Notes under the pieces: model-generated
Databases searched by the model: none
The model's input: only the letters and a program-made list of their open reading frames with translations
What the model was told of the DNA's origin: nothing
Translations under genes and position numbers: made by a program
In this document: positions 1,704 to 20,583 of the stretch, piece after piece
Numbering within the stretch: the stretch's first letter is position 1
Layout of the letters: each line of letters starts with the position of its first letter
Source: a virus
DNA length: 64,000 bases
Strand: one strand, 5' to 3'
Virus record (IMG/VR): IMGVR_UViG_3300037010_003079
Location: 1 to 64,000 of that record

Positions 1704-1905
1704 TGATCCGCGGAGCGGGACATCGGTCCATCGGCGGGTGTTGTGCTCGCGCTTCGAGTACTACGGCCTCATGCACGCTGTGCGTCCGCTGGGCAACTAC
1801 GTCCGAACGTTCTGCGACATCTACGTGCCGTGGGAACTAGCCTACGACGAGTACCTGCTTATCACCTGCATCCCGTGTCTCGCAGCCATGAAGGAATACC
1901 GATGA
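1696..1905 (+). CDS. VH-TCxxC family small protein
   Basis: 69 residues, with Met replacing Val in the first motif: YYGLMHAV (H27), TFCDIY (C40) and LITCIPCLA (C58, C61). The ATG overlaps the end of the previous gene by 8 bases. A 20-residue basic N-terminal extension with an extra Cys17 precedes the domain. Confidence 0.8.
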   Translation: MIDDPRSGTSVHRRVLCSRFEYYGLMHAVRPLGNYVRTFCDIYVPWELAYDEYLLITCIPCLAAMKEYR

Positions 1906-2234
1906 GCCTCGTACCTGAAGACCTGACGAAGTGGGATCTCGAGAACCTCTTGCGTGAGTTCGAACGTTGCGTCAAACTTGAGAAGGCGTTCGATGGCGTC
2001 GGAGGACGCTACCAAAGCCTGATCCACGCCAAAGTCGAGGCCCTGGGCACCGAAGCCATCCGTCGGACCGGGTTGCACCCGAACTGGTGGCGTGTGAAGG
2101 GCGTCGTGCCGTCGTCGTGGACCGACGAGCACGGCATCACACACACTTGGCAGCACTGGATGATCCAACGCAAGCCGGATGATTCACCGCGGATGGTGAC
2201 GTGCCTGCTGTGCATCGCAAAGGAGTTTGTGTGA
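1902..2234 (+). CDS. Helical N-terminal domain fused to VH-TCxxC module
   Basis: 110 residues starting at an ATG that overlaps the previous stop. Residues 5-55 form a predicted helical, charged domain of unknown type (KWDLENLLREFERC). Residues 72-108 are a diverged VH-TCxxC module: DEHGITHTW (H81) and MVTCLLCIAK (C101, C104). The usual middle Cys is missing, so a canonical HC-CC metal site would be incomplete unless another ligand substitutes. Confidence 0.75.
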   Translation: MSLVPEDLTKWDLENLLREFERCVKLEKAFDGVGGRYQSLIHAKVEALGTEAIRRTGLHPNWWRVKGVVPSSWTDEHGITHTWQHWMIQRKPDDSPRMVTCLLCIAKEFV

Positions 2235-2503
2235 GCTACGTCATCGATGACAAAGGCCTCGTTCACGAGGTCCTCGACAACCGCGGGACGATGTGCGGCA
2301 GCTACCACAGCGCGTGGGCAACCGCAGAGGCAGGATCTGTGGTGACGTGCTTCGCGTGCATGCATCCCGCTATCAGCAAAGACTGCGGGCACACGGACGC
2401 TCGGATCGGAAACTGTCCGTACGCGGCGGACATCCACAATGACAGCACGCAGCGGTGCAAGTGCTGCAGTGATTGCATGCACCAATGTGCGTTGGACATC
2501 TAG
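2231..2503 (+). CDS. VH-TCxxC protein with C-terminal Cys-rich extension
   Basis: 90 residues from a GTG coupled to the preceding TGA. Residues 8-45 are the family module (KGLVHEV H12, TMCGSY C22, VVTCFACM C40/C43). Residues 50-86 add another Cys-rich unit (DCGH, NCPY, CKCCSDCMHQC) that could hold a second zinc. It is the last gene of the left-hand array; its TAG shares the CTAG tetranucleotide with the stop of the convergent baseplate gene. Confidence 0.75.
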   Translation: MSYVIDDKGLVHEVLDNRGTMCGSYHSAWATAEAGSVVTCFACMHPAISKDCGHTDARIGNCPYAADIHNDSTQRCKCCSDCMHQCALDI

Positions 2504-3147
2504 GCGAAGAACTCGAGCTTGTCCGGACCGAACTCACCCGGCTTTTCGACCCGCGCAACGTAGGTGAATCCGGGCAGCACCAGGATCGGGTTCACCCACT
2601 TGCCGGCCGCGTTCGTCGTCGTGATGCCCACCGGGCTCGCGAGGTTCCCGACGTCGTAGTCGCTCTTGTAGTAGACCCGCACCTGCGCGTTCTCGATCGG
2701 GCTGCCGCCGGGCGTCATGTACGCCATGTCGCCGGGCAGCGGGTAGTCCGCCGAGATCGCCACCGTGTTCGTGAACGGTGGGGGCGTCGGCACTGCGGCG
2801 CCGCCGAGGTTCAGGTCGAGCAGATCCCACTCGATGACGTCCACCGTGTCAGCGCCACGCGTGAGCTGCACCTGGTAGAAGTAGAGCTGCAGGGGCAGGG
2901 CGGCCGTGTCCGTGGGCAGGAACGTCAGGTCGAGCACCGGCAGGTTCTGCTCGAAGGCGAGGTTGTCGGGGTTGAGCGCCGTCGTGAACTTCAGGACGTT
3001 GCTGACATCCTCGGGCTGGTTCCTCATCAAGAACTGCGCCGTGGCGTCCACGAGCGCAGCCAGCGGGATGGGCTCGCCGTTCTCGTCCACGAGGTCGATG
3101 CTCAGTTTTTTGGTGGTGCCACGGGTCAACGAGATACGGTTCGACAT
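2500..3147 (-). CDS. Baseplate/fibre-like protein with BppU-like N-terminus
   Basis: 215 residues; the ATG overlaps the upstream gene's stop. The N-terminal half (ISLTRGTTKKLSIDL, then DENGEPIPL) has the shape of the immunoglobulin-like domain at the start of phage baseplate upper proteins. The C-terminal part (residues about 130-215, with AQVRVYYKSDYD and GKWVNPILVLPG) resembles a carboxypeptidase-regulatory-like beta sandwich. It is the last gene of the left-hand fibre module and probably a virion appendage component. Family assignment is by pattern only. Confidence 0.7.
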   Translation of the reverse strand: MSNRISLTRGTTKKLSIDLVDENGEPIPLAALVDATAQFLMRNQPEDVSNVLKFTTALNPDNLAFEQNLPVLDLTFLPTDTAALPLQLYFYQVQLTRGADTVDVIEWDLLDLNLGGAAVPTPPPFTNTVAISADYPLPGDMAYMTPGGSPIENAQVRVYYKSDYDVGNLASPVGITTTNAAGKWVNPILVLPGFTYVARVEKPGEFGPDKLEFFA

Positions 3148-3611
3148 CAGCAACGCTCCTTGATCGTTCCCACGATCCGTTGGCTTCGTATCACGCCGGC
3201 GAGCCGTGCTGCGCCGGGCTCTCGCACCACGCCGGTGAGCTTGCTTGAGCGCACGATGCCCGAGAGGCGTGTGGTCTGGGGCTCGCGTGCGACGCCCACG
3301 AGCGGCGTGGTGCTGCGAACGATGCCCGTGAGCTGCGCGACCGGCGAGACCGGCTGGACCATGCGGTCCCAAAAAAAGATCTGCACGACGTCGCCATCCA
3401 CGGGCGCGTTGTCGACCTCGATCGTCCCCGATGCGGGATCCAGCTCGCTGTAGCCGTAGTCGTTGTCGGGGCCGCGTGCGATCGACGGGCTGTGGATGCG
3501 CCCGTTGAGGATGTACGCCGTCGAGCCCGCCACGTAGGGCACGCCCGTTCCGAAGACCCGGTTCGAGCCGTCGATCACGCCCTGCGCAAGGACGATGCGA
3601 GCGTTGGCCAT
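3147..3611 (-). CDS. Virion appendage protein with short tandem repeats
   Basis: 154 residues. Residues 8-40 (VIDGSNRVFGTGVPYVAGST, then ILNGR) match a motif common at the start of small phage tail-appendage proteins. Residues about 90-154 are six or seven short repeats of the form Leu-x-Gly-(Ile/Val)-(Val/Ile/Ala)-Arg-(Glu/Ser), spaced 8-15 residues apart. The short repeat suggests a beta-solenoid or a flexible stalk. A TACAAT element lies six bases upstream of the ATG. Confidence 0.7.
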   Translation of the reverse strand: MANARIVLAQGVIDGSNRVFGTGVPYVAGSTAYILNGRIHSPSIARGPDNDYGYSELDPASGTIEVDNAPVDGDVVQIFFWDRMVQPVSPVAQLTGIVRSTTPLVGVAREPQTTRLSGIVRSSKLTGVVREPGAARLAGVIRSQRIVGTIKERC

Positions 3612-3615
3612 GGCT

Positions 3616-3822
3616 CTATTGTAGGCGGACCCAGAACGCAACGACGTCGCCAAAGCCTGGCGGGTCGTCGATGCGCACGGAGGAGGCGCTGGTCTCGGTC
3701 CAGCCTACAGAACGAGTACGGCCGTTGATGGCAACAACGGCCGTACCTGGAATCCAGGGGATGGGGGAGGAAAAGTCGCGCCGGGCCCCGTCTGGAGCCT
3801 CGAACGCGACCTGGAACGTCAC
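3616..3822 (-). CDS. Small virion-appendage-like protein
   Basis: 68 residues from GTG. The sequence (FSSPIPWIPGTAVVAINGR) repeats the layout of the neighbouring 154-residue protein: a short beta-rich domain with a Pro-Gly-Thr turn followed by a xINGR strand. The two probably share a fold. It lies in the same minus-strand fibre operon; no catalytic motif is visible. Confidence 0.65.
   Translation of the reverse strand: MTFQVAFEAPDGARRDFSSPIPWIPGTAVVAINGRTRSVGWTETSASSVRIDDPPGFGDVVAFWVRLQ
3618..3623 (-). promoter_or_regulatory. CCTACAATA promoter-like element
   Basis: TACAAT on the minus strand, six bases from the ATG of the repeat-containing appendage gene. A weaker match to the shared motif. 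Confidence 0.4.
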
Positions 3823-3828
3823 GAGCTA

Positions 3829-4200
3829 CTAGCCCGAGACGCCGACTTCGCCTTCGCCGTCGATGGACAGCGCGGTGTTCGCGCTGGCGCCGCCGACGAG
3901 GAAGTCCGTCGCATCGAGGCGAAGCACGCCGTACCAGTCCACGTAGCTGTTCGCCGGGACCGAGACGGCCTGGAAGGCGAACTCGGTGCCGGCCGCGTTC
4001 GCGCCGGTCGCGCCGACCCACAGCGAGACGGTGACCGCGCCCGCGGTCTTGTTCACGACGCGGATGTGGCGCAGGACGACGTACTGCGCGGCCGCGCCTG
4101 CGTTCACGCCACCTGACGCCGCTGCCGGGTTCAGCAGGTTGGTCGTGGTGACGTTGGTGAGCGCGATCGGACCGAAGCGGAAAATCTTGTTGGACGCCAT
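3829..4200 (-). CDS. Small structural protein of the fibre module
   Basis: 123 residues, beta-rich and small-residue-rich, beginning MASNKIFRFGPIAL. The layout (strand, Asn-rich loop, VLRHIRVVNKT, SLWVGATG) is like small head- or tail-decoration proteins that phages encode beside their fibres. A CCCCTATAATT element and a GGGAGG ribosome-binding site precede the ATG, so this gene may open a transcription unit. Its exact virion location is unknown. Confidence 0.7.
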   Translation of the reverse strand: MASNKIFRFGPIALTNVTTTNLLNPAAASGGVNAGAAAQYVVLRHIRVVNKTAGAVTVSLWVGATGANAAGTEFAFQAVSVPANSYVDWYGVLRLDATDFLVGGASANTALSIDGEGEVGVSG

Positions 4201-4217
4201 GGCTTTGCCTCCCGAGA

Positions 4218-4223
4218 ATTATA
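4218..4223 (-). promoter_or_regulatory. CCCCTATAATT promoter-like element
   Basis: TATAAT on the minus strand, 17 bases before the ATG of the 123-residue structural gene with GGGAGG between. Confidence 0.65.
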
Positions 4224-4242
4224 GGGGATCGAAGTTCAGAAA

Positions 4243-4515
4243 CTACACGAAGACGGAAACGGCCACGTCAGCAGCCTGGACCGTGAATGGAGCGGGCATC
4301 ACGGCAGCGGCAGCCACGACCGCGCTCTGGATCGCCGCCTGCCATGCCGCGTTCGACAGGGCGGTGGGGTCGAGGAGCACTTCGACCGCGCTGACCACGC
4401 CCCCTTGTCCCGGGTAGATCTCTGGGTCGAAGACGATGAAGTGCGCGAACACGTGGAAGCCGTTGTCGGTCATACGTTCATCGCTAAGACGGGTCACCAA
4501 GGCACGTGCGGTCAT
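4243..4515 (-). CDS. Hypothetical protein of the fibre module
   Basis: 90 residues, Ala/Val-rich, no cysteine, no catalytic motif. It lies between the long collagen-like tailspike gene and a small structural gene, all on the same strand with short gaps, so co-expression with fibres is likely. I do not recognise the family. It could be a fibre chaperone or a small structural protein. Confidence 0.6.
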   Translation of the reverse strand: MTARALVTRLSDERMTDNGFHVFAHFIVFDPEIYPGQGGVVSAVEVLLDPTALSNAAWQAAIQSAVVAAAAVMPAPFTVQAADVAVSVFV

Positions 4516-4523
4516 GGGGTCCT

Positions 4524-7500
4524 CTACGGGTTCGCGGGATTGATGATTTCAGCGATGGTCTGCCGAATCGTGAGGGTCTTCGAAGCGCCAGTGGTGATGT
4601 TGACGCTGATGAACTGCTGCGCGGTGGTGCTGTTCCAGGTCGCCATCGTGCCGGTGAGCATGTTGACGATCTGTCCGATGAGGCCGCCGGCGGCACCTGC
4701 CGTTGTGGTGCTCAAGATCGAGCAATCGGCGATCGCGGTCGCTGCTGCGCCCAATGTGCGAATGGTGAACGTGATGACGATGCTGAATTCAGCGACGGTA
4801 GCCAGGCCTGCCGTGGTCGTAAACGTCGCAACCACGCCATCACCTGTCGTGCCCGCGGTGCCGATGCGGATGGTGATGGAGTTGGTGGCAGTGCCCACGG
4901 CGGCCGACGCCCCGCGGATCGTCCAACGTAAAACCGTGCCGACTTGAAAGCCTTGTGGAGGCACCGTGATCAATGACCCGGTAAACAAGGTGAGCGTCGC
5001 AGCTGAGATGGCCTGGTCAGCAACAGAGGTCGATGCGTGCATGACGAGGCCTCCGTTGGGAGTCCACTCGAAGTACACGCCACCCTCTGTCACCGGAATC
5101 GCTTCGCCGTTGCCCAACTGGTAATAGTCCCAGTAATGCGGCTGCGACATCGCGAGCAGTCGCGTGCCGCTGTTGAGCACGCCCATCACATCGACACCGC
5201 CAAGGCCCGCAGAACCCCCGTTGAACTGATTGTTACGGGCAGCAAGCGTTGCGCTCGAGTTCGAACCGTTGAGCCGCACGCCCGGCTTGCGCACCCGGTT
5301 GATCGCGCCATCGGCCGTGATGCTGCCGCCGTTGATCATCGCGTTGATGGTCAGGACGCTGTCGGAGTTGCGGAACTCCATCGCAGCGGGGCCCCACGTC
5401 GTGCCGTGCGAGAACTGGAACATCTCGATGTTCGCGCAACACGTGTTCGCCGTCGTGTCGCCGTCCATGCGGATACACGTGCCGTTGCCCGGCACGGCTT
5501 GCACGACGTTCGAGCCGTTGACGGTGGCCGGTACGTTGATGGCTTCGCCTGCCGAGATCGTGCAGCCCGTGAGAGTCACCGTGCCGCCGCCACCCGTGTA
5601 GTTCACGAGCACGGGGTAGCCCATGTTCGTCTCGACCCAGACGTAGCCCGCGGTCGGTAGCGTGTTGGCAGCGACGGTCAAGCTCTGTGGCGTCGCCGAG
5701 AGCGTCACGGCACTTGTCATCAAGATGGCCGTGGTCACCGGACTCGGCGGGTTGTCGAGCATGCGGACACAGAACCGCTCCATCTTGAAACGCGTGCAGT
5801 CGCGGGCTTCACCGAGCGTGGCCACGACGTTCATGTCGATGCCCACCGCGAGCGCATCGTTCACGAAGAAGTCATGCCAGTGCCCGCCGTGACAAGACAG
5901 CAGTTGAAGACCGATCAGCGCGTTGTTCTGATCACCGTTGCGGCAATCGAGGGTGAGGCCCTCGATGATCGAGCCCGTGTTGGCGGCGTTGCTCGCACCA
6001 GAGACCGCGGTGATTTGGAGCAAGGGTGATGTGAACGAACCGTTCGACGTGCCCCACCAACAGATGTGGGCGCCGCCCTGGCGCGTGTAGTCACCGATGT
6101 CCGTGGTGTACGAACCCGACGGTCCCATGAGGTGGACCGCGTTGGCCGTAACCGTGAGGCCTGCGGTGACGCCGTAGCGCCCCTTGTTGACCACGGGGAA
6201 GTAGACGATGCCGCCCTTGGCCGTCTGCGCGGCGTTGATCGCGTTCTGGATGGCGGTGGTGTTGTCCGTGCCGAACGAAGTGCCTGCGGCCGATGCAGTC
6301 GTGCCTGCGTTGGCCGCGAGCGTCACCGTGCTCGAGGACGTGAACGCCGAGATAGTCGTGGTGAGCTGCCCTGCGGACGCGCCTGCACGCGCCACCGTGA
6401 TGCGCTTGCCGATGTCTTGTGCGGTGAATGGTGTGCTCGTGGCACACACGAGCGTCGCGGTGCCGGTGGTGATGGCACCATCGAACACGGTGACAAGGTC
6501 ATCGCGGGCATCGAACTCGGCCACCACGTCGTAGACCAGGCGTGACGCGATGGCGTTCTGCGGCAGCGCGATCGGATCGAGCGTCGAGTTGTCCGCTTCA
6601 TCGCCGATGAAGATGACCGCAGGTCCCGCAGGTCCCGCGGGCCCCGGTGAGCCGGTGGACCCTTGCTGACCTTGCGGACCGACCTCCCCATCGGCCCCAT
6701 CCTCACCTACGAGGAACGTGGCGACACCCGGCGCTCCCTGCGCACCCGCATTGCCAGACGTTCCCGCGGCACCCGGAGGCCCCACACCGCCGTCATCGCC
6801 ACGATCCGCATCGGTGAGGAAGATGAATCCTTGCGGGCCTTGCGCGCCTGTCGTGCCGGTGGCGCCGGGAGGTCCCGCAGCTCCGGGCGGTCCGGGATCA
6901 CCGTCGGGGCCATCTTCGCCCACGAGAAATGTCGCGACACCCTGCGGTCCGATGCCACCCGTCGCGCCGGTCGCGCCCTGCGGTCCAGCATCACCGGGCT
7001 TGCCGGGCTCGCCGTCTTGTCCGTCCTCACCGACAAGGAACGTCGCAACGCCCTGGGGTCCGATGCTACCTGTCGCCCCTGCCACGCCCTGTGGTCCCAC
7101 GTCGCCGGGCTTGCCGGGCTCGCCGTCCGCACCATCTTCGCCCACGAGAAACGTGGCGGCGCCTTGAGGCCCTTGTGCACCTGTGGACCCGGCAGCGCCC
7201 GCGGTGCCCGCAACGCCAGGCGGCCCTGGGTCACCGTCGTTGCCCGGCTCGGCCTCGAGAAAGACGGCCACACCCTGAGGGCCGATCGCGCCGGTCGTAC
7301 CCTGTGGTCCTGGATCACCCGGCTTGCCGGGTTCACCATCCGCACCGTCTTCGCCGACGAGGAACGTGGCGACACCCTGCGGGCCTGTCCCGCCGGTGGC
7401 GCCTTGAACACCCTGCGGACCTTGCGGACCAAGGTCACCGTCTTGGCCGTCTTCGCCGACGAGGAACGTGGCGACGCCCTGAGGGCCTGACGCGCCTGTG

Positions 7501-8291
7501 GTGCCCTGGATACCTTGCGGCCCCATCGGACCGAGGTCACCGTCTTGACCATCCTCGCCGACGAGGAACGTGGCGGGACCCTGCGGTCCACTCGAGCCGG
7601 TGAGACCTTGGATGCCTTGCGGTCCGGGCTCGCCATCGGCCCCTGGTTCTGCGTCGAGGAAGATCGCGGCGCCTTGTGGCCCCTGCGCACCTGTGGTGCC
7701 CGGCGTGCCCGGCGTGCCCGCGGGTCCCTGTGGACCTTCGCCACCGTCTTGACCATCGTCACCGACGAGGAAGACGGGCGCGCCCTGCGGCCCCTGTGCG
7801 CCCGTGGTGCCCTGAAGACCTTGTGGACCCTGTGGGCCGTCACCACCGTCCTGTCCGTCTTCGCCAACGAGGAAGACGGCAGGACCAACCCCACCGGACG
7901 GCCCTGTTGGTCCGATGCTGCCGGTGGTCTTGAGACCGCCTGTGGAGTCGTAGACCTTCCATCCATCGGAATCGACGATTGCCCAACCGTTGCCCGGGAT
8001 AGTGAAGTTACCCGTGATCTGGTTGATCGCAGCGGTTCCGTTGAGAAAGACCACCACGCCCGCAATGTCGATACCTGCCGTGTTGGCTAGATGAATCGAC
8101 TTGACCAATGTCGCGTTTGGATATGCGGGTGCGGTGTAGACCGTCGCAGCAACATTGCTCAACTGACCTTGAGCGAGTGTCTTGTACGTCGGTTCGCCTT
8201 GCGTAACCTCGGCACCTGCCAAGGTATACGTGATGGTTGCACCAACGCCTGCAACGCCTGCGATCGTCTCTCCGCCGGCCAGTGTCAACAT
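4524..8291 (-). CDS. Collagen-like tail fibre with beta-helix tailspike domain
   Basis: 1255 residues. Residues 1-125 form a beta-rich attachment region. Residues about 130-580 are Gly-X-Y collagen repeats, broken every 30-35 residues by a conserved hydrophobic-acidic unit ([12 protein letters not shown] and variants, about 13 copies). Residues about 600-1255 look like a pectate-lyase-type right-handed beta helix: VYDVVAEFDARDD, then a Gly/Ala-rich segment before DNTTAIQNAINAAQ and GIVYFP. That layout is typical of trimeric tailspikes, so glycan binding or cleavage is likely, though no catalytic residues can be assigned by eye. The start overlaps nothing; the neighbouring fibre gene ends at the adjacent base. 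Confidence 0.88.
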   Translation of the reverse strand: MLTLAGGETIAGVAGVGATITYTLAGAEVTQGEPTYKTLAQGQLSNVAATVYTAPAYPNATLVKSIHLANTAGIDIAGVVVFLNGTAAINQITGNFTIPGNGWAIVDSDGWKVYDSTGGLKTTGSIGPTGPSGGVGPAVFLVGEDGQDGGDGPQGPQGLQGTTGAQGPQGAPVFLVGDDGQDGGEGPQGPAGTPGTPGTTGAQGPQGAAIFLDAEPGADGEPGPQGIQGLTGSSGPQGPATFLVGEDGQDGDLGPMGPQGIQGTTGASGPQGVATFLVGEDGQDGDLGPQGPQGVQGATGGTGPQGVATFLVGEDGADGEPGKPGDPGPQGTTGAIGPQGVAVFLEAEPGNDGDPGPPGVAGTAGAAGSTGAQGPQGAATFLVGEDGADGEPGKPGDVGPQGVAGATGSIGPQGVATFLVGEDGQDGEPGKPGDAGPQGATGATGGIGPQGVATFLVGEDGPDGDPGPPGAAGPPGATGTTGAQGPQGFIFLTDADRGDDGGVGPPGAAGTSGNAGAQGAPGVATFLVGEDGADGEVGPQGQQGSTGSPGPAGPAGPAVIFIGDEADNSTLDPIALPQNAIASRLVYDVVAEFDARDDLVTVFDGAITTGTATLVCATSTPFTAQDIGKRITVARAGASAGQLTTTISAFTSSSTVTLAANAGTTASAAGTSFGTDNTTAIQNAINAAQTAKGGIVYFPVVNKGRYGVTAGLTVTANAVHLMGPSGSYTTDIGDYTRQGGAHICWWGTSNGSFTSPLLQITAVSGASNAANTGSIIEGLTLDCRNGDQNNALIGLQLLSCHGGHWHDFFVNDALAVGIDMNVVATLGEARDCTRFKMERFCVRMLDNPPSPVTTAILMTSAVTLSATPQSLTVAANTLPTAGYVWVETNMGYPVLVNYTGGGGTVTLTGCTISAGEAINVPATVNGSNVVQAVPGNGTCIRMDGDTTANTCCANIEMFQFSHGTTWGPAAMEFRNSDSVLTINAMINGGSITADGAINRVRKPGVRLNGSNSSATLAARNNQFNGGSAGLGGVDVMGVLNSGTRLLAMSQPHYWDYYQLGNGEAIPVTEGGVYFEWTPNGGLVMHASTSVADQAISAATLTLFTGSLITVPPQGFQVGTVLRWTIRGASAAVGTATNSITIRIGTAGTTGDGVVATFTTTAGLATVAEFSIVITFTIRTLGAAATAIADCSILSTTTAGAAGGLIGQIVNMLTGTMATWNSTTAQQFISVNITTGASKTLTIRQTIAEIINPANP

Positions 8292-10703
8292 TTATCCCGC
8301 CATGAAGAAGAGGAAGCCGTAGTTCGGACGACGTGTCGGCGCCACGTACTCCGTGTCACCTGAGTCACCATCTTGTCCAGGTGGCCCAGGGGCGCCATCG
8401 ACACCGCGCGCGCCGTCCACGCCCTGGCGTCCCGGCGGTCCGTCTTGGCCGTCTTCACCATCGCTGGTGAGGAAGATGGCAGGCCCGGGAGCGCCCGCCG
8501 CGCCCGAGACCGCGGTCAACACGTAGTTGGCGTAGTAGACGGTGATGGTGTGACCGGGCCCGGTCGCGTTCGAGACCCGGACATCGAAGGTGTCACCTGG
8601 TGCGACGCCTTGGACCACGCCCGACACCGTGACCGTCCCAACCTCGGGGGTTGTGGAGGTGTGCTGGGCCACGTGCGTGGCGATCGGGCTGCCGTTCTTG
8701 TAGAGCTGGAAGGTGAGGTCTTGGTTGTTCGCGTCGCACGACAACGACAACGTGCAGATCGTCAGGTACGTCCCGGCGATGCCTGCGACCAGCGTGTCCG
8801 TGCTGAACGTGAAGCCGTTGTTGTCACCCGCCGTCCACCCCGTCGAGATCTGGTAGAACGTGCTCGCGAGCGTCATCGTCGTGACGGCCGACGCAGCGTT
8901 GACCATCTCTCCGTAGGCGGCCACGCCGGTCTGCGCGGGCGCGCCTGCGGCGCCCTGCGGTCCGATCGGACCGGGAGGTCCTTGGATGCCTTCTTGACCG
9001 TCTTCACCGACGAGAAAGACCGCAGGGCCGATCCCGCCGGTGTCGCCGGTCGCGCCTTGTGGACCCGGAGGGCCTTGCGGACCGGAGTCGCCATCCGCAC
9101 CGTCGTCGCCGACGAGGAACGTGGCGACGCCCTGGGGTCCCGACGCACCCGTGGTGCCTTGGATGCCCTGCGCACCTTGCGGACCGAGGTCGCCGTCTTG
9201 CCCATCCTCGCCGACGAGAAAGATCGGCAGGCCCTGGGGACCTGTTGCGCCAGTTGCGCCGGTGAGCCCGGTTGCACCCGGAGCGCCGGGCTCGCCGTCT
9301 TGACCGTCCTCGGCTGCGAGGAAGACCGCAGGCCCAACCGCGCCTGCGCTGCCGGTCGCACCCTGCAGGCCCTGCGCACCTTGCGGACCATCGCCGCCGT
9401 CTTGCCCGTCTTCGCCGACGAGGAAGATGGGCAGGCCCTGCGGACCCACGTTGCCGGTGACGCCCTGCGGCCCTGCGGCACCGGGTGCACCCGGCTCGCC
9501 GTCTTCACCACGCTCAGCATCGAGGAACGTGGCGACACCCTGGGGTCCCTGTGAGCCGGTGGGACCTTGCGGACCTTGTGGACCGATCTCACCGTCGGCG
9601 CCGTCTTCGCCCACGAGGAACGTGGCGACGCCTTGCGGTCCTGTCCCGCCGGTGGCGCCTGGAAGACCCTGCGGCCCCTGCGGACCATCGCCACCATCTT
9701 GGCCGTCTTCGCCGACGAGGAAGATGGGCAGGCCCTGCGGACCGCTCGAGCCCGTCGTGCCCTGCGGACCCGCGGGCCCCATCGGGCCTACGTCACCGTC
9801 GTCACCACGCTCCGCCTCGAGAAAGATCGCGGCGCCCTGCGGCCCTTGTGCGCCGGTGACGCCTTGCGGACCCGGAGGTCCGATCTCACCGTCATCACCA
9901 CGCTCGGCTTCGAGGAACGTTGCGACGCCTTGTGGACCGACCGAACCTGTGGTGCCCTGCGGGCCTGCAGGACCTTGCGGTCCATCGCCACCGTCTTGAC
10001 CGTCTTCGCCGACGAGGAAGATCGGAAGACCCTGCGGACCCACCGCGCCCGTCGTGCCTTGAACACCCTGCGCGCCCTGCGGTCCGATGTCACCGTCTTG
10101 CCCATCTTCGCCGACGAGGAACGTGGCGACGCCCTGTGGGCCACTCGAGCCCGGAAGGCCCTGCGGTCCCATCGGTCCGATCTCGCCGTCGTCACCACGC
10201 TCGGCGGCCAGGAAGATCGCGGCGCCTTGGGGCCCCTGCGATCCGGTGGTGCCTTGTGGCCCGGGAGCGCCGGGCGGACCGACGTCGCCATCTTCACCAC
10301 GCTCGGCCTCGAGAAACGTGGCAACGCCTTGTGCGCCGGTGGGGCCGAGCGGGCCTTGGATACCCTGGACGCCCGGTGGACCCTGCGGACCAAGGTCGCC
10401 GTCTTGACCGTCTTCGCCGACGAGAAACACCGCCGGACCGACAGGCCCGACGTCACCCGTGGTGCCCTGCGCGCCTGGCGCGCCTGGCGGACCGACGTCT
10501 CCGGGTTCACCGTCTTCGGCGGTGAGAAAGACGGCAGGCCCGCGAGGACCTGCATCACCCGTGGTGCCTTGGAGACCGGGTGGACCTTGAGGCCCTTCGT
10601 CACCTTCGGGGCCTTCGATGCCCGCAGGACCTGGCAGACCGGGCGCGACGTTGACGGCGTCGAACTTTCCGGTGAGCGGGTTGAAGATGAACTTGATCGC
10701 CAT
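8292..10703 (-). CDS. Collagen-like tail fibre
   Basis: 803 residues. The N-terminus [17 protein letters not shown] is a common phage fibre start. Residues about 20-580 are collagen-like repeats with about 16 copies of the same interruption found in the adjacent tailspike ([10 protein letters not shown] or [10 protein letters not shown]). A globular beta-sandwich follows (about 590-730; [16 protein letters not shown], then [14 protein letters not shown]), resembling C1q/TNF-like fibre heads. A second short Gly-X-Y run leads to the C-terminal [11 protein letters not shown] trimeric, rod-like side fibre is the likely structure. Confidence 0.87.
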
Positions 10704-12770: not shown

Positions 12771-13358
12771 ATGTCGAGATCGCCCAACCTATTGATCCCT
12801 CATTCGGCCTCCCGACTGAAGGACCAGCGACCGACCCTCGAGTATCTGACGCGGTACGTCGAAAAGGGTGATGACGCTTCAGACCATTGGTTTTGGAGGC
12901 TTGATTCTGCAGCCAAACATCCACGACGCCTTAGTGCAGGCGGCCAAGCGATCATTTCATGGTCACCCAAGGCCAGTGTTAAGCGTGCAATTTTCTCGGT
13001 TGCACGGTTGCTTATCGAACACTACAAAGGCCCCTTCCCGGAGTACTCAGTTTTCGAGCCTTTGTGTTCGCTTCCGCACTGCGTGAACCCGAACCACTGG
13101 AAGTGGCGTTCGCTGCCCGTCCGCTACCGCTTCCACCCCCTGGCCGAAGGGTGGCGGGTTGCTGAGGTTCGTTCGGGGCGCGTTGTCCAGGCCCGCCTTC
13201 TCCTGGCCGTGCGCGACCAGCACGGCGTCTCCCACACGGTCTCGGCGCCTCCTCACCTCACGTCGCGCTTCGTTGCGATGTGCGATGCCCTCATCATCCC
13301 CGAGGTCTCGGTCGTGCTCGCCTCGAACGCTGTCATCACATGCAAAGGAGGTTGCTGA
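12771..13358 (+). CDS. HNH-like domain fused to diverged VH-TCxxC module
   Basis: 195 residues. Residues 38-112 hold the signature of small HNH endonuclease-like proteins: HWFWRL, then LCSLPHCVNPNHWKW (C99, C104, H109). The C-terminal 50 residues echo the VH-TCxxC module in degenerate form (HGVSHTV H155, MCDAL C171, VITCKGGC C191/C195, where CxxC became CxxxC at the C-terminus). Without a clear His-Asn-His catalytic triad, nuclease activity is uncertain. First gene of the right-hand array. Confidence 0.7.
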   Translation: MSRSPNLLIPHSASRLKDQRPTLEYLTRYVEKGDDASDHWFWRLDSAAKHPRRLSAGGQAIISWSPKASVKRAIFSVARLLIEHYKGPFPEYSVFEPLCSLPHCVNPNHWKWRSLPVRYRFHPLAEGWRVAEVRSGRVVQARLLLAVRDQHGVSHTVSAPPHLTSRFVAMCDALIIPEVSVVLASNAVITCKGGC

Positions 13359-13891
13359 TGGGTGCTCGCCTACAACCACACCACGGACGCTCTACGGTAC
13401 TGCCTCCACGTGACCTTGTTGACCCGTTCGTCGAGGTCACCCCGAATCACTGGTACTGGCTCGCGGAGTTCCACGACGATGGCGAAGGTCCTACCGCCAT
13501 CTTTCCATGGTCACCGCCGTATGAAGTCTCCACACAGTTCGTGGTGGCTCGGTTGCTGTGGTGCTGGGAGAACGACGGGGTCGGCATCAAGCGTCTGGTG
13601 CTCAACAATACGTGCGGCTTGGCCACATGTATCAACCCTCGGCATTGGCGCTACGCCAACATGCCCACCGACAAACACTACACGCTCGGCCCAGGCACGG
13701 ACGCACGGTTGCTCGAGTATCCGTATCACCCGAACACCGTGCACATCGTTCGTGCGGAGTCCCCCTACGCGATGTGTGGCGTCTCCATCCGCAAGTTCCT
13801 GACCGCGCGCCACCGAGTCATCACGTGTGATGACTGCTTGAAGGAGTGGCGTGGCTACGGGCGTCCCCTCGAGGAGATCAAGCCGCCGTGA
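13358..13891 (+). CDS. HNH-like domain fused to canonical VH-TCxxC module
   Basis: 177 residues, a paralogue of the gene before it: HWYWLAEF, then NTCGLATCINPRHW (C86, C91, H96). Residues 125-163 are an intact VH-TCxxC module (NTVHIVR H129, AMCGVSI C140, VITCDDCLK C157/C160). A strong AAAGGAGG site inside the upstream gene sits ahead of the ATG, which also overlaps the previous stop (TGATG). The pair shows directly that the small module is joined to a nuclease-like zinc domain. Confidence 0.78.
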   Translation: MGARLQPHHGRSTVLPPRDLVDPFVEVTPNHWYWLAEFHDDGEGPTAIFPWSPPYEVSTQFVVARLLWCWENDGVGIKRLVLNNTCGLATCINPRHWRYANMPTDKHYTLGPGTDARLLEYPYHPNTVHIVRAESPYAMCGVSIRKFLTARHRVITCDDCLKEWRGYGRPLEEIKPP

Positions 13892-14064
13892 ACTATCCCC
13901 ACGTTGTGGATGCTCGAGGTCTTGTGCACTTTCACGTCATCGGCTCTTCGAATAACCACAAGTGCCGCATGAGCGTCTACGTTCCGGGTAGCCATCGGGG
14001 CCCGATCCGTACCGCTCGACCCGTGACGTGCTTCTGGTGCATCGCGGGCAGGAGGTTCCGGTGA
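13888..14064 (+). CDS. VH-TCxxC family small protein
   Basis: 58 residues from GTG, overlapping the HNH-like gene by four bases. Minimal form of the module: RGLVHFHV (H14), KCRMSVY (C26) and PVTCFWCIA (C48, C51), then a basic tail GRRFR. It is close to the shortest copy, so it defines the core domain as about 45 residues. Confidence 0.82.
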   Translation: MNYPHVVDARGLVHFHVIGSSNNHKCRMSVYVPGSHRGPIRTARPVTCFWCIAGRRFR

Positions 14065-14279
14065 GCTGGGACAACCGCACCCTGCCGGATGTCGTCTGGA
14101 AGGTTGATGGTGTTCGACATGTTGTCGTCGAGTGGTGGAACGACGGCACGTTCGCGTGGGCCACGTTGTGTGAGTCTCACGACACGCTTTGGACGACAAG
14201 CGGTGGCAAGAAGCCGCGCGTCTTCAAGGGCTTCATAACTTGCCTCCAATGTTTGGCAAAAGGCGACGAAGCCCCATGA
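14061..14279 (+). CDS. VH-TCxxC family small protein
   Basis: 72 residues from GTG coupled to the previous TGA. The first motif is shifted (VRHVVVEW, H20, with Arg before His instead of Val). The others are normal: TLCESHD (C37) and FITCLQCLA (C61, C64). Rich in Trp (5 residues). Confidence 0.78.
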   Translation: MSWDNRTLPDVVWKVDGVRHVVVEWWNDGTFAWATLCESHDTLWTTSGGKKPRVFKGFITCLQCLAKGDEAP

Positions 14280-14527
14280 CCAAGTTCCGTCGTCCAACAC
14301 CTCACACACCTCCGCCGATGAGCAAGCACGGCCCTTTGCTGCACGTCCCGCGCAGCGGGTTGCCGTGGGCGTTGTGTGATACCCGAGGCGTCGTCCATGT
14401 GCGATATGCGCCTGGTGATGTTGACCGGATTCGCATGCCTGCGTGCGACCCGTACGCGAACGAGACCCTCGAAGATACGCTCGCCGACGTCACGTGTCTC
14501 TGGTGCATCGCAGGAGCCCAACGCTGA
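14276..14527 (+). CDS. VH-TCxxC family small protein
   Basis: 83 residues; ATGA overlap with the upstream stop. A Pro/His-rich N-terminal extension of about 30 residues precedes RGVVHVRY (H41), PACDPY (C57) and DVTCLWCIA (C74, C77). C34 just before the Val-His strand is an additional candidate metal ligand. Confidence 0.8.
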   Translation: MTKFRRPTPHTPPPMSKHGPLLHVPRSGLPWALCDTRGVVHVRYAPGDVDRIRMPACDPYANETLEDTLADVTCLWCIAGAQR

Positions 14528-14775
14528 TGGCCTACGTCATGAAGTACACCGACTACGTCCGCATCAAAGGACCCGATCCTGTCGTCCACCTTCGTGATGT
14601 TCGAATGCTCAACCTCGCCATGTGCCGGGGTCGATTCGCTGCATCGTCGATGGACCAGCACTATGACGTGAACGCCGTACCCACGTGCTTCTGGTGCCTC
14701 AGTGGCGCGGATGGCAGTTCGTTGTGTTGGTTCGAGTGGGGTGTTGGTGGGCCGAACCTGGTGACGTCGACGTGA
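14527..14775 (+). CDS. VH-TCxxC family small protein
   Basis: 82 residues, TGATG-coupled. Motifs: DPVVHLRD (H21), AMCRGRF (C33) and VPTCFWCLS (C54, C57). It has a longer C-terminal tail than most (25 residues, C67, Trp/Gly-rich), overlapping the start of the next gene by four bases. Confidence 0.8.
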   Translation: MAYVMKYTDYVRIKGPDPVVHLRDVRMLNLAMCRGRFAASSMDQHYDVNAVPTCFWCLSGADGSSLCWFEWGVGGPNLVTST

Positions 14776-15002
14776 CCGACTGTGTCTTCATCGATAACCT
14801 CGTGCATGAAGTCACGACCGTCCACTTCATTTCCGTACGAGATCATGCACCCGAAGCCAAGCTGAACGTGCGGTGTGGCGGCTATGTCACTGTGCCCCGT
14901 GCGTACGACTGGCGCTGGGGCGGCATCGTGACGTGTCTCTGGTGCATCGCCGACCGCTCACGTCAGCGCATGGACATCATCGAACTCAAGTGCACGATCT
15001 AG
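14772..15002 (+). CDS. VH-TCxxC family small protein
   Basis: 76 residues from GTG. Motifs: NLVHEVT (H12), VRCGGYV (C35-Gly) and IVTCLWCIA (C55, C58). It closes this sub-array; a seven-base gap with an AGGAGAAA site follows before the LuxR-type gene. Confidence 0.8.
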   Translation: MTDCVFIDNLVHEVTTVHFISVRDHAPEAKLNVRCGGYVTVPRAYDWRWGGIVTCLWCIADRSRQRMDIIELKCTI

Positions 15003-15009
15003 GAGAAAC

Positions 15010-15282
15010 ATGATCAAACTACTCACGCAACGCGAGGACGCTGTCGCTGCACTCATCACCGAAGGTCTCTCCAACAAGCTCATCGCAGACAAGCTCGACA
15101 TCAGCGAGCACACGGCGAAGTTCCACGTCGCCAACGTGTGTCAGAAGTTCGGCACGACATCGCGCGTGGTCGTCGCCGTCGAATACACGCTAGCGAAGCT
15201 GCTGTGCTCGATGAACCCAAACACGTGTGCCTCGTGCGAAGCACGACGGCTTCGCGGTGGGATGGTGGACCGACATGTCTAA
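15010..15282 (+). CDS. Solo LuxR-type helix-turn-helix protein
   Basis: 90 residues. Residues 4-60 are a textbook LuxR/GerE C-terminal DNA-binding domain: LTQREDAVAALITEGLSNK, then IADKLDISEHTAKFHV and a KFGTTSR turn. No receiver or sensor domain is present, so activity is likely set by protein level alone. A good AGGAG site stands in front of the ATG. The last 20 residues add a CASCEA pair. It probably regulates phage or host promoters; the target is unknown. Confidence 0.88.
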   Translation: MIKLLTQREDAVAALITEGLSNKLIADKLDISEHTAKFHVANVCQKFGTTSRVVVAVEYTLAKLLCSMNPNTCASCEARRLRGGMVDRHV

Positions 15283-15598
15283 AGAACAGCTCGAAGCACT
15301 TCGAGACCGCATCCTCGCGTCGTTGCATACACAGTTTGCAACGAAGGTCGGGGCGCTCATCGACGCACACGGTCACAACGTCCCGTTCGCTCCGTTCCTA
15401 CACGACCTCGCCAACAACTTGGCGCAAGGGTTCGTGGACGAACCCCCCGTGTCGACTATCACCATCACCCTCGAGGTCGAAGGGGACGCTGATGCGGCGT
15501 CTCAGGTCGTCGAGCACTTTCTCGACGAGGGCACGTTGCAGGACGCCATCAACGAGCACGAGGCTGGCTGCAAGATTCTTTCGGTGGTGTCGTCGTGA
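15275..15598 (+). CDS. Hypothetical acidic protein
   Basis: 107 residues; ATG inside the end of the LuxR-type gene. The N-terminal half is helical (KEQLEALRDRILASL), followed by beta strands (STITITLEVEGDADAAS) and a C-terminal helix. A ferredoxin-like alpha/beta fold is possible. I do not recognise the family. It overlaps the next gene by four bases. Confidence 0.7.
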   Translation: MSKEQLEALRDRILASLHTQFATKVGALIDAHGHNVPFAPFLHDLANNLAQGFVDEPPVSTITITLEVEGDADAASQVVEHFLDEGTLQDAINEHEAGCKILSVVSS

Positions 15599-15786
15599 AG
15601 ATTCATTGGAACGTCTTCGGCTGGAACATCTACAGCTGGGGGCTCGTGCACATCACCATCCGTAGTCGCGCCGAGGAGATTTTATGCGGTGCGACGTCGC
15701 AGTATGGTCCGCCGATGACTGTGCACGACGATGAGCCCATCACATGTTTCGCGTGTCTCGCACTCGAGGCGTCTCGTGGGGGATGA
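15595..15786 (+). CDS. VH-TCxxC family small protein
   Basis: 63 residues from GTG. Motifs: WGLVHITI (H19), ILCGATS (C31-Gly) and PITCFACLA (C51, C54). It stands alone between non-family genes, evidence that copies have been scattered rather than kept only in tandem. Confidence 0.82.
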   Translation: MKIHWNVFGWNIYSWGLVHITIRSRAEEILCGATSQYGPPMTVHDDEPITCFACLALEASRGG

Positions 15787-16073: not shown

Positions 16074-16661
16074 ATGGCCAAGCTCTACTTCCGCTACGGC
16101 GTCGTCTCCTCGGCCAAGACGCTCAACCTGCTCGCCGTCGCGCACAACTATCAGCTGCAGGGCAAGCGCGTCGTCATCATCAAGCCCAAGCTGGACACGC
16201 GGTTCGGTGAGGACGTCGTCGCATCGCGTTCTGGGCTCTCGGCCAAGGCGGATGTGCTCGTCGACGACGACGGCCTTCCCGACAAGCTGTGGACAGGCAT
16301 CGCGTGCGTGTTGGTTGACGAGGCGCAGTTCCTCACGGCCCGCGTAGTCGATCAGCTTCACAGCGTCGCGCATCACGAGGGCGTGCCCGTCATCTGTTAC
16401 GGGCTGCGCACCGACTTCCGTCGCCGCCTCTTCCCAGCGTCGCAGCGTTTGTTCGAGCTGGCGGACAGCATCGAAGAGGTCAAGACGACCTGCTTTTTCT
16501 GCAACCGCAAGGCGACGTTCAACCAACGGTTGATCGCAGGGGACCAACAGGTGCTGCTCGGCGGGGACGATGTGTATCGCCCAGTGTGCGCGGTGCACTA
16601 TCCGGCCACGCCCGGAGAAGATTTCCACCCAAGGCGAAGCGCTGATGATGCATCACGATGA
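16074..16661 (+). CDS. tdk: Thymidine kinase (type II)
   Basis: 195 residues, normal length for the bacterial/phage type II enzyme that phosphorylates thymidine to dTMP with ATP. Walker A is G9-VVSSAKT16 (Ala replaces the usual Gly before Lys-Thr). Walker B with the catalytic acid is VLVDEAQFL (D82, E83). The structural zinc site is C140-x2-C143 and C172-x2-H175. The lasso loop lies near residues 144-165. It supplies dTTP during infection, together with the dCMP deaminase encoded about 19 kb to the right. Confidence 0.95.
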   Translation: MAKLYFRYGVVSSAKTLNLLAVAHNYQLQGKRVVIIKPKLDTRFGEDVVASRSGLSAKADVLVDDDGLPDKLWTGIACVLVDEAQFLTARVVDQLHSVAHHEGVPVICYGLRTDFRRRLFPASQRLFELADSIEEVKTTCFFCNRKATFNQRLIAGDQQVLLGGDDVYRPVCAVHYPATPGEDFHPRRSADDASR

Positions 16662-17840: not shown

Positions 17841-18000
17841 GCCTCTCCTCCGTCCGGCCGACATCGCGTGGCAGGCGTTTCAGGCCGGCGCCGCATTGTA
17901 CGTGGGCTACGACATCGAGTACCTGAACACGCAGTTCAAGGCGTGGTGGAAGCGCCACCCACAAACCCTCCCTAGCGGAGAACTCAAGGAAGAATCGTGA
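17812..18000 (+). CDS. Hypothetical small protein
   Basis: 62 residues from an ATG preceded by AAAGGAAC within the upstream gene. Basic N-terminus (PPKKARPRK) and an aromatic core (IAWQAFQAGAALYVGYDIEY). It overlaps the next gene by four bases. No family recognised. Confidence 0.62.
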   Translation: MPPKKARPRKPLLRPADIAWQAFQAGAALYVGYDIEYLNTQFKAWWKRHPQTLPSGELKEES

Positions 18001-18254
18001 AGTCATCGACCAAGAAGACCGCCGGACCCAAGACCATCCCGTCGCAGCTCCATCTGCCTGGTGGCATCGTCCTCAAGTCCATGCCGTTCAAGATCGTCGA
18101 GTACAACGATGACGGCACGCCGAAGCTGTTCGAGCTGCAGCCCGCCGGCCCGCACGACATGAAGGTCGACGGTGCGTGCGTGCTGTTCGCTCAGGAGGAA
18201 TGGATCCGCAGCCCGCAGCCAGGCAAGGCGAAGGCCGAGGAGCCGGCATCGTGA
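17997..18254 (+). CDS. Hypothetical small protein
   Basis: 85 residues from GTG. Beta-rich core (IVLKSMPFKIVEYNDDGTPK) with a final charged tail. Tight GTGA coupling on both sides. Function unknown. Confidence 0.65.
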   Translation: MKSSTKKTAGPKTIPSQLHLPGGIVLKSMPFKIVEYNDDGTPKLFELQPAGPHDMKVDGACVLFAQEEWIRSPQPGKAKAEEPAS

Positions 18255-18463
18255 AGGACCTCATCGAAGCCCTGACCCTCCTGCTCAAGTACGGCAACCC
18301 ACGGAACCCAACGCACTGCGAGCACGACGTGCTGACGATCTGCGGTATCGACCCCAGTGATGTCACGGAGGAGGACAAGAAGAAGCTCGACGAGCGGGGG
18401 TTCTTCGTGAGCGACGAAGACGGTGACCCGTGCTTCATCTCGTTCCGGTTTGGGAGCGCGTAG
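18251..18463 (+). CDS. Conserved hypothetical protein (CEHDVL type)
   Basis: 70 residues from GTG. The core NPTHCEHDVLTICGIDP with a C-terminal CFISFRFGSA has the look of a compact conserved family shared by phages and bacteria. The C-E-H-D cluster might bind a metal. Role unknown. Confidence 0.7.
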   Translation: MKDLIEALTLLLKYGNPRNPTHCEHDVLTICGIDPSDVTEEDKKKLDERGFFVSDEDGDPCFISFRFGSA

Positions 18464-18465
18464 TC

Positions 18466-18897
18466 GTGGGCTACTGCATCTCGCTCATGGAATCGCACTT
18501 CTTCATCAAGGCCGCCAACAAGAGCAAAGCCCTCGAGGCCATCCGTGCGCTCGCCGAGGACGAGTCCAAGATGGGTGGTGGTTCGTGGGGTTCGCACGGC
18601 TGCTCACGCCATTTCTCGTGGGTCACCACGGACGAGTTCTATCTCGCCAAGACGCTCGAGGTCGCGTTCGAAGCGTGGCGCTACGAAGCGCACGCCGACG
18701 AGAAGACAGGCGACGTCGTGGGTATCAGCTTCAACGGCGAGAAGCTGGGTGACGATCCTGTTCTCTGGCGCGCGGTCGCACCGTTCGTCGAGCATGGAAG
18801 CTACCTCCAGATGGCGGGCGAAGACGGCATGGTGTGGCGTTGGGTCTTCAACAACGGCAAGATGGAAGAGGTCCATCCGGTCTGGCCCGACGAATGA
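18466..18897 (+). CDS. Conserved hypothetical protein
   Basis: 143 residues from GTG. It begins with a strand-helix pattern (HFFIKAANKSKALEAIRALA) and ends with a Trp-rich sheet (GMVWRWVFNNGKMEEVHPVW), a mix seen in small bacterial immunity-like or SMI1-like folds, although I cannot assign it. It overlaps the next family gene by four bases. Confidence 0.68.
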   Translation: MGYCISLMESHFFIKAANKSKALEAIRALAEDESKMGGGSWGSHGCSRHFSWVTTDEFYLAKTLEVAFEAWRYEAHADEKTGDVVGISFNGEKLGDDPVLWRAVAPFVEHGSYLQMAGEDGMVWRWVFNNGKMEEVHPVWPDE

Positions 18898-19124
18898 ATG
18901 TGCTCGCTCTCTTCGATGGGCTCGTGCACCTGGTACGCGTTCCGGAGACGAAGTACGAGTACGGCCTCACGGCGTGTCGGCGGGACTTCGCGCACCACAA
19001 CGACCCCGTGCGATTCCTCGAACGCGACATCCTGCCCATCAAGCCGACGACTACGCCGTTCACGTGCCTCTACTGCGCGATCGCACCGCCCTCGAGCGGC
19101 GCTGGTCAGGAGAAAGAATCATGA
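18894..19124 (+). CDS. VH-TCxxC family small protein
   Basis: 76 residues. Motifs: FDGLVHLVR (H12), LTACRRDF (C28) and PFTCLYCAI (C58, C61; Ala-Ile inverted relative to the usual Ile-Ala). Start chosen at the ATGA overlap with the previous stop. It opens the third and largest sub-array. Confidence 0.8.
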   Translation: MNVLALFDGLVHLVRVPETKYEYGLTACRRDFAHHNDPVRFLERDILPIKPTTTPFTCLYCAIAPPSSGAGQEKES

Positions 19125-19360
19125 CGACGCAAGAATCCGCGGCCCACTGGAACAAGCTCGCCGACGACGAGCTGCGCTGGGCTTCGTACGAAGAAGGTCG
19201 CGGGCATTACGGAGGGGTTCATCGGAACCGCGCCGAGATGTTCCGCAAGACCGCTGACTCGATCGAGCTGGAGATCAAGACGGGCAAGACGCACTGCACG
19301 GTGTGCCTGGGGCCGCACGAGAACCGGTTCTGCCCGCAGCGACCTGGGGCGCGGCGATGA
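19121..19360 (+). CDS. Small protein with C-terminal zinc knuckle
   Basis: 79 residues with an AGGAGAAAG site. Helical, His/Arg-rich N-terminal part, then HCTVCLGPHENRFCPQ, a C-x2-C-x4-H-x4-C zinc-knuckle spacing, the same as retroviral-type CCHC knuckles. Single-stranded nucleic-acid binding is therefore possible. It sits between two family members. Confidence 0.7.
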   Translation: MTTQESAAHWNKLADDELRWASYEEGRGHYGGVHRNRAEMFRKTADSIELEIKTGKTHCTVCLGPHENRFCPQRPGARR

Positions 19361-19695
19361 CGCGGCTCCGTCCCCAACGGAACATCTGGGCCGTTCGTGA
19401 CAAGGACGGCCTCGTGCACATGGCCTCGGTGATGCGCTTCTTCGACGATGCCAACGAGAGCTTGATCTCGGCGCTCCACGTCGCGACGGCCTGTCATCCC
19501 GCGGTCACGATGGTCGCGAACCCGCAACGGTTGCCCTGGGCCGGGTCGCACAATCTGCCCAACGTCGACATGCACGACGCGATGACGTCGCCCGGCTCTC
19601 CGATCGCTGCGAAGCTCCGCTTCACCGTCGTCGCGTGGAACGTCCACGAAGCGCCGACGTGTCTGCGTTGCGTGGCCATGGGAGGGCTGGACTGA
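19357..19695 (+). CDS. VH-TCxxC family protein with long insert
   Basis: 112 residues. Motifs: DGLVHMAS (H21), TACHPAV (C46) and APTCLRCVA (C102, C105). The gap between the middle Cys and the CxxC block is about 55 residues, the longest of any copy, and contains additional His residues. Confidence 0.78.
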   Translation: MTRLRPQRNIWAVRDKDGLVHMASVMRFFDDANESLISALHVATACHPAVTMVANPQRLPWAGSHNLPNVDMHDAMTSPGSPIAAKLRFTVVAWNVHEAPTCLRCVAMGGLD

Positions 19696-20171
19696 TGCAA
19701 CGCGTGTTCGTCATCTACTACGAGCACCGTCACGGGACCGACGTCTCTGCGTACGCAACCCACGAGGCTGCGCTCGAAGCGCGTGCGGATCTCGTGATGG
19801 ACAACCTCGACAACGAGGTCACCGACGACAACCTGCGGACCATCATCAAGCAGTGCCACCGCGAGGGTGAGTGGGCTCGCTGCTACGACCTCTACTGCGA
19901 ACAGGTCGAAGACGAGAACATGACCATCGAGGACTGCAGGCTCAACGACGCGCACGTGAACGAGCGTTTCGTCATGGTCGACGTCGACACCGAGCTTGCA
20001 CACATCGTGGCCTTGTGGCCATATGCGGACCAGCACGGTCTCGCGTTGTGCGAGCGTCCGTTCTTCTGGCAGGGTGAGGAGGCACGGGACCGCGTCCGTG
20101 CCTACCTCCCGAAGGAGACCCGCCTCGTGACGTGCTTGGAGTGCATCGCCCGTGAACAAGCGCCAACGTAA
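19695..20171 (+). CDS. Alpha/beta N-terminal domain fused to VH-TCxxC module
   Basis: 158 residues, TGATG-coupled. Residues 1-95 form an unrelated alpha/beta domain (RVFVIYYEHRHGTDVSAYA, then helices). Residues 98-153 are the module: TELAHIVALW (H103), LALCERPF (C119) and LVTCLECIA (C147, C150). One of at least four N-terminal fusions. Confidence 0.76.
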   Translation: MQRVFVIYYEHRHGTDVSAYATHEAALEARADLVMDNLDNEVTDDNLRTIIKQCHREGEWARCYDLYCEQVEDENMTIEDCRLNDAHVNERFVMVDVDTELAHIVALWPYADQHGLALCERPFFWQGEEARDRVRAYLPKETRLVTCLECIAREQAPT

Positions 20172-20583
20172 GAAGCGGCTGAAGAAGACCATGGACCACA
20201 TGAGCGGGACCCTCAGGGACGCGCTCAAGCACAAGATCGGCGAGCAGCTGACGCCGACCCAGACCGTCGCGATGCAGAACCTCATCGGCGACACCATCAA
20301 GGCGAAACTGTCGCAGCAGTCCTTCACCCACCAGGTCTTGATGATGACACCGCTGTCGTACGTGCCGCCGTTCCACAAGTGGCGCGAACTCGGCACGGCC
20401 GCGCTTACCCACCACGTCGGGATGTACCCGTACATCAGTGGGCACGGCGAGACCGTCTGGAAGCGTTTCTGTGACGACGAGACCGTCGACTCGATGTACA
20501 TCCTGTCCACCGACGAGGCCGTCACTTGCTTCGGCTGCCTCGCTAAGGAGCACATCATCCATGCCTCCGCGGTTGATCTCTGA
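20152..20583 (+). CDS. Basic helical domain fused to VH-TCxxC module
   Basis: 143 residues from GTG. The N-terminal 60 residues are basic and helical (NKRQRKKRLKKTMDHMSG). The module follows in diverged form: AALTHHVG (H87), RFCDDE (C107) and AVTCFGCLA (C126, C129). Start overlaps the previous gene by 20 bases. Confidence 0.74.
   Translation: MNKRQRKKRLKKTMDHMSGTLRDALKHKIGEQLTPTQTVAMQNLIGDTIKAKLSQQSFTHQVLMMTPLSYVPPFHKWRELGTAALTHHVGMYPYISGHGETVWKRFCDDETVDSMYILSTDEAVTCFGCLAKEHIIHASAVDL

Follow-up and report, generated by a model that had tools for sequence, protein, structure and literature searches.

An undescribed, amplified and portable small-domain family in an uncultured large phage and its relatives

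The IMG/VR virus record IMGVR_UViG_3300037010_003079 (111,733 nucleotides) represents an uncultured large phage, and we analyzed its positions 1 to 64,000, hereafter referred to as the window. Thirty genes of the window encode a module of ~45-60 residues that carries a His, a middle Cys and a terminal TCxxC pair. This module is an undescribed, amplified and portable small-domain family. It is conserved in related phages, it is kept together with its partner domains where it is fused, and its paralogs have diverged under purifying selection. A preliminary description of this DNA had proposed a domain fused to at least five partners; the portability is real, and it extends further than was claimed.

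The module has the consensus [D]xxG-[LVI]-V-H ... C-[G] ... [V/P]-T-C-x-x-C-[I/L]-A. Alignments of 30, 56 and 64 members show little or no variation at the His and the three Cys, and the inter-ligand spacing is 6-40 and 7-55 residues. All module genes lie on the + strand, most overlap the next gene by a few bases at the stop and start codons, and free-standing copies outnumber fused ones by approximately 4:1. Within the complete record the copies are confined to the first 24.9 kilobases (kb), and none was seen between 24.9 and 111.7 kb, where the tail sheath and hub genes are located. The proteins have the dimensions of small zinc-finger microproteins (under 100 amino acids with a Cys/His metal-ligand pattern), and copies of at most 100 amino acids make up 36 of 46 and 57 of 64 in two related phages (G002 and G007, respectively).

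Recognition of the module in the fused proteins was assessed with a held-out hidden Markov model (HMM) that was trained on the 23 non-fusion copies alone and searched against the 2,301 six-frame open reading frames of the record. All module proteins outranked the background, the first unrelated frame appearing at E=0.44. With genes named by their first position, the E values were 1.6e-6 for 20152, 1.2e-5 for 19695, 3.5e-5 for 19357 (a copy with a long insert) and 0.0019 for 1902. The values for 13358 (0.071), 12771 (0.079) and 23016 (0.31) were marginal and just above noise, and these three were accepted because their orthologs keep the ligands. Six HNH fusions from four phages agree at the His, middle Cys and terminal Cys columns and also align with free-standing modules across the entire module (alignments A5/A9). 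Each of the six fusion genes named in the preliminary description is a single open frame with the module at the end indicated there, C-terminal in five and N-terminal in 23016. The module to which the label 'VH-TCxxC' was applied is confirmed, but the letters are not literal, as the two residues before the His are IT, VS, TV, LA, LT and LV in 1902, 12771, 13358, 19695, 20152 and 23016, respectively, 12771 and its ortholog end in TCKGGC, and 23016 has SCMRC.

A search with the tail sheath gene provided eleven relative contigs, several of them 100-188 kb long, in which module copies were counted with a profile of 56 modules at E<=0.001. This count gave 26 copies for the present record (G000), 24 for G005, 35 for G011, 41 for G002 (a nearly identical phage, assembled to greater length), 64 for G007 and 8 for G006. 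Two contigs with a sheath identical to that of this record (G001 and G004) hold four copies each; those of G001 lie at the very end of the contig, so the array was probably cut by the contig boundary. Contigs found through a two-module protein hold 28 copies in 36 kb (G1403) and 8 copies in 87 kb. Three further candidates (L019, L021 and L022) proved spurious as module relatives.

The fusions themselves recur as units in these relatives. G005 and G011 both have counterparts of 19695 and 20152, that of 12771 occurs in G011, G007 and G006, those of 13358 and 1902 occur in G011, and the counterparts of 23016 in G005, G011 and G007 keep the ligands. In the 19695 family (A6) and the 20152 family (A7) the ligands, all four in the former, are invariant in three phages, the ratio of nonsynonymous to synonymous substitution rates (dN/dS) being 0.23 for 19695 against G005, and 1902 is 57% identical to its G011 ortholog with a dN/dS of 0.21. 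Two architectures not represented among the fusions of the preliminary description were added by the search for the same module in other phage proteins. One is a module, a middle domain and a second module (A4), present in G002, G005, G011, G007 and two other contigs; the other joins a module to a phrog_6115 domain (L031:11323-11763; residues 3-62 match with E=1.5e-13). Pfam, PHROGs and PDB gave no match to the domain between the two modules, for which a winged-helix identity, guessed from its sequence, was discarded as unsupported by these databases. Portability over at least five partners (HNH-like, helical, alpha/beta, basic helical and a C-terminal tail) is thus strongly supported.

The best characterized partner is the HNH/His-Me-like domain, which matches the endonuclease family phrog_1872 with E=2.9e-7 for 12771 and 1.8e-9 for its ortholog, and more weakly for 13358 (E=0.0082) and its ortholog (E=0.19). 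The match covers the N-terminal 101 of 166 positions, and the remainder of the protein is the module. This domain and the HNH/His-Me endonucleases have a C-x4-C-[IV]-NP-x-HW loop in common, and the AlphaFold2 (AF2) model of the N-terminal part of 13358 has I-HmuI and I-PpoI as its best, although weak, Foldseek matches (E 0.56). In HNH/His-Me enzymes such as I-PpoI, the general-base His is expected in H-x-C, two residues before the first Cys of the zinc loop. Other residues occupy this position in all six HNH-fusion homologs (A5), so the domain is probably inactive and more likely to be a DNA-binding than a cutting part. In a separate observation, the tail of 23016 (23262-23492) contains SSKPNMQNIPRR, which recalls a DNA polymerase I motif; the counterparts in relatives diverge, and no match supports a Pol I-like motif (SSKPNMQNIP) in this tail.

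The presence of His-Me/HNH-like domains among the partners raises the possibility that the modules are small zinc transcription factors for phage or host genes, among which the fusions, HNH-like and others, would be the variants that contact DNA, and small zinc-finger microproteins of haloarchaea are discussed as gene regulators (PMC7230728). We consider this explanation unlikely, as most copies are neutral to acidic and Pfam, PHROGs and PDB offer no match for the domain that separates the paired modules. The HNH-like domains, moreover, are without the usual general-base His.

The free-standing protein 22834 was modeled with AF2 from 64 aligned sequences (mean predicted local distance difference test score, pLDDT, 83.2; predicted template modeling score 0.68). 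The predicted fold (E8-11 E17-26 E29-32 E43-45 H53-60, with E for strand and H for helix) opens with a short strand, after which a long strand begins at the conserved His; a hairpin then leads to the middle Cys and is followed by another short strand and by a closing helix that begins between the two Cys of TCxxC. Because H18, C34, C52 and C55 converge at the hairpin and the start of the helix in this model, the H-C-CxxC residues very probably form a zinc site.

Sequence variation among the copies is informative about what the module does. The information in 165 copies is carried mainly by the four ligands and adjacent hydrophobic or small residues, namely [LVI]-V before the H, V/P-T before the C, and L/V/F, I/L and A around CxxC, together with a D and a G immediately ahead of the His, while the loop columns hold only ~0.2-0.6 bits. 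Judged from the model and the residue types, the informative positions next to the ligands are probably buried core. Net charge varies from -9 to +11 with a median near -1. Paralogs in the window are ~29% identical (median), versus 67-82% for the best ortholog pairs, whose dN/dS is ~0.08-0.3. Identity to G005 and G011 is 78-81% for the sheath and has a median of 46-49% for module genes, which indicates that the module family evolves faster than the sheath gene and yet is constrained.

These patterns bear directly on the general function that had been suggested for the module, recognition of a shared ligand or docking surface, with each partner supplying a different effect there. The presence of a single scaffold in many fusions, and its tandem use within one protein, speak in favor of such a function. 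A shared ligand should, however, leave a shared surface, and conservation is limited to the ligands and their probable core neighbors, with divergent loops and widely differing charge; in addition, dozens of divergent copies per genome would be redundant, and some paralogs are individually conserved. The proposal is therefore unsupported, and we regard it as improbable.

Exchange between copies may contribute to this diversity. Gene 24373 shows an A-B-A arrangement in which an exact 124-nucleotide duplication (24465-24588 and 24669-24792) flanks an 81-nucleotide piece, itself a copy of 23174-23254 of the neighboring module gene 23016 with one mismatch. G002, a separate record, has this arrangement too; G005 lacks it and has an intact copy. 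This suggests template switching between module genes, with at least one exchange, unless an artefact is common to both assemblies.

The explanation that we favor, to which we assign about an even chance, is that one scaffold, held together by zinc, serves for many targets and is occasionally joined to a partner domain. The module would be a small autonomous domain in which the His at the start of a strand, the Cys after the hairpin and the TCxxC at the N-terminus of the closing helix coordinate a metal that is most likely zinc. Stability would come from the metal site and the core, leaving the two inter-ligand loops and the termini free to vary. The phage clade has amplified the module into a microprotein family in tightly overlapping gene arrays, apart from the structural genes and possibly expressed early, and each paralog would probably recognize its own target in infection, either host proteins or, for basic members, nucleic acid. 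When fused, the module may act as an accessory targeting or interaction domain to which the partner adds DNA contact or another activity. Conserved ligands and core, free loops and individually kept paralogs fit one scaffold with many targets, as in early host-interaction genes. A bolder version holds that the array constitutes a repertoire, carried by the phage, of dozens of metal-held scaffolds of one fold, diversified in their two loops and by template switching, in which every copy has a host component of its own as target and some are fused to a partner; this we put forward as a tentative possibility, doubtful in its entirety.

Several observations weigh against the reuse of one metal-held scaffold for many targets. 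Predicted structures, which the preliminary description had named as a check, give a mixed outcome: the module alone folds confidently, and in the HNH fusion as modeled by AF2 it has a pLDDT below 50, such that the same fold across fusions is not borne out. Gene 1902 is without the middle Cys, as is its G011 ortholog, and in some copies metal may be bound by different residues or not bound. Identity falls to 35-45% in many of the reciprocal-best pairs, with dN/dS of 0.4-0.9 and synonymous sites close to saturation, so that only a subset of paralogs shows clear independent conservation. Were the favored explanation correct, an undescribed family would account for a large share of the accessory genes in a clade of big contractile-tailed phages and would exemplify with unusual clarity how a single small scaffold is multiplied and joined to different partners. 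The natural variants on this scaffold could then be used to find the host parts that a phage attacks.

The module genes of the window are listed in Table 1.

Table 1. Positions of fused and free-standing module genes in the window
Feature	Coordinates	Strand	Remarks
Fusion 1: helical domain (1902-2099) and C-terminal module (~2100-2231)	1902-2234	+	
Fusion 2: HNH/His-Me-like domain (12771-13190) and C-terminal module (~13191-13355)	12771-13358	+	
Fusion 3: second HNH/His-Me-like domain (13358-13714) and C-terminal module (~13715-13861)	13358-13891	+	
Fusion 4: alpha/beta-like domain with HRHG motif (19695-19967) and C-terminal module (~19968-20168)	19695-20171	+	
Fusion 5: basic helical domain (MNKRQRKKRLKK..., 20152-20376) and C-terminal module (~20377-20559)	20152-20583	+	
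Fusion 6: N-terminal module (~23028-23261) and C-terminal tail with SSKPNMQNIPRR	23016-23495	+	
Two free-standing modules	3-173 (truncated by contig end), 173-358	+	H, C, TCxxC
Five free-standing modules	761-979, 976-1203, 1200-1406, 1512-1703, 1696-1905	+	Mostly overlapping stop/start
Module with 40-residue Cys-rich tail	2231-2503	+	
Five free-standing modules	13888-14064, 14061-14279, 14276-14527, 14527-14775, 14772-15002	+	
Free-standing module	15595-15786	+	
Free-standing module	18894-19124	+	
Module with ~50-residue insert between middle C and TCxxC	19357-19695	+	Orthologs in G005 and G011
Free-standing modules	20561-20788 (SCxxC), 21121-21309	+	
Free-standing module	21887-22114	+	
Free-standing module, AF2-modeled protein	22834-23019	+	
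Four module genes	23492-23740, 23862-24116, 24113-24370, 24373-24648	+	
Partial module copy from internal duplication	24649-24867	+	24669-24792 repeats 24465-24588

The frame corresponding to 21887 in G005 (L034:4806-5333) has an extra N-terminal membrane-like segment and a linker, and the same segment is possibly present in G007 (L041 16830-17396); the window instead has two separate genes, one for the membrane protein and one for the module. A small frame at ~1393-1564 with CTTCGAQRGRPC has a Cys-rich zinc-type pattern that differs from the module. Between two module arrays, 4524-10703 on the minus strand encodes very large, collagen-like Gly-X-Y repeat proteins (frames of 803 and 1255 amino acids, with repeats of ~102 nucleotides) that are probably tail-fibre-like. 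A thymidine kinase gene (16074-16661; PF00265, E=2.4e-43) also lies between module arrays, 15010-15282 encodes a small protein with likeness to LuxR-type helix-turn-helix proteins, and 37193-40010 contains six transfer RNA (tRNA)-like genes, three of them without a clear anticodon call.

Database searches returned no module family by sequence in Pfam, PHROGs, NCBIfam or PDB. Scans of 56 modules against Pfam, PHROGs, NCBIfam and PADLOC gave isolated matches at E 0.016-0.1, which we judged to be chance, and tblastn with two modules and an HNH fusion gave no credible match in 50,697 phage records. In bacteria, the profile was searched against 396 genomes of the phylum of Knoellia (Actinomycetota) and 284 of the phylum of a Myxococcales metagenome-assembled genome; its 22 weak matches were dismissed as noise, nearly all being bare TCxxC fragments without the GxVH part, and with at most 16-22 candidates scored per genome absence is not proven. 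A sheath search of bacterial genomes for a host or prophage gave no relative, and we found no description of the module family in the literature.

Among known systems, the solved fold that comes nearest to the module while having its ligand order is the N-terminal domain of pyrrolysyl-tRNA synthetase (PylRS), a zinc-bound tRNA-binding domain whose fold is unique among known synthetases according to a review (PMC11467909). This domain (PylSn, TIGR03912; PDB 5UD5 and 5V6X) and the module have the metal ligand order H...C...CxxC in common, and the spacing of W-x4-G-x-[VIL]-H and T-x-C-[GN] is shared with 29 PylSn sequences. PylRS N-domains were the two best of 350,542 PDB chains in a Foldseek search with the module model, and hhalign against the 29 PylSn sequences aligned all four ligands with P=0.0018. 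However, the structural match is below significance (E=0.49, template modeling score (TM) 0.39), the HHalign probability is 15%, and 4 of 150 shuffles, in which ligand columns were fixed and the others shuffled, score as high. The module profile did not retrieve PylRS from PDB, and none of seven phage records gave a match to TIGR03912 at E<=10, the curated threshold of this HMM (>=51 bits) not being reached by the modules. The module also is without the basic SR/RWLRN stretch and the strongly basic, tRNA-contacting character of PylSn (net charge +7 to +23 versus a median near -1). A true link is rather doubtful in our estimation, and the likeness is best treated as a lead, not membership; if real, it could possibly provide a bridge to the origin of the PylRS N-domain.

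Other likenesses are found among small viral and bacterial proteins. Haloviruses of the HF1 group, which infect haloarchaea, encode many CxxC proteins of fewer than 100 residues, none in the structural-gene region (PMC7230728), and these resemble the modules in size, motif and absence from that region, but are described as a motif class and not as one paralogous fused family (PMC7230728). In DUF3039 (PF11238), a conserved actinobacterial small protein, the part that can be aligned to the N-terminal module of two-module proteins (E 0.003-0.09) is the C...CxxC half, the best scores of 17.7-18.3 bits, over 25-28 of 56 positions, being below the gathering threshold of 22.7. The best viral structure match is a 76-residue protein of the Haloarcula virus HCTV-2 (BFVD R4THQ4, probability 0.98, TM 0.60, E=0.042), seen once and missed by the module profile. 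Its sequence reads GVTH...LCG...CTNC, and 43000-43230 on the minus strand of NC_021319 (L195) fits it by length and pattern. This protein is possibly a single-copy relative of the module and, together with the weak DUF3039 match, hints at a wider class of H-C-CxxC domains.

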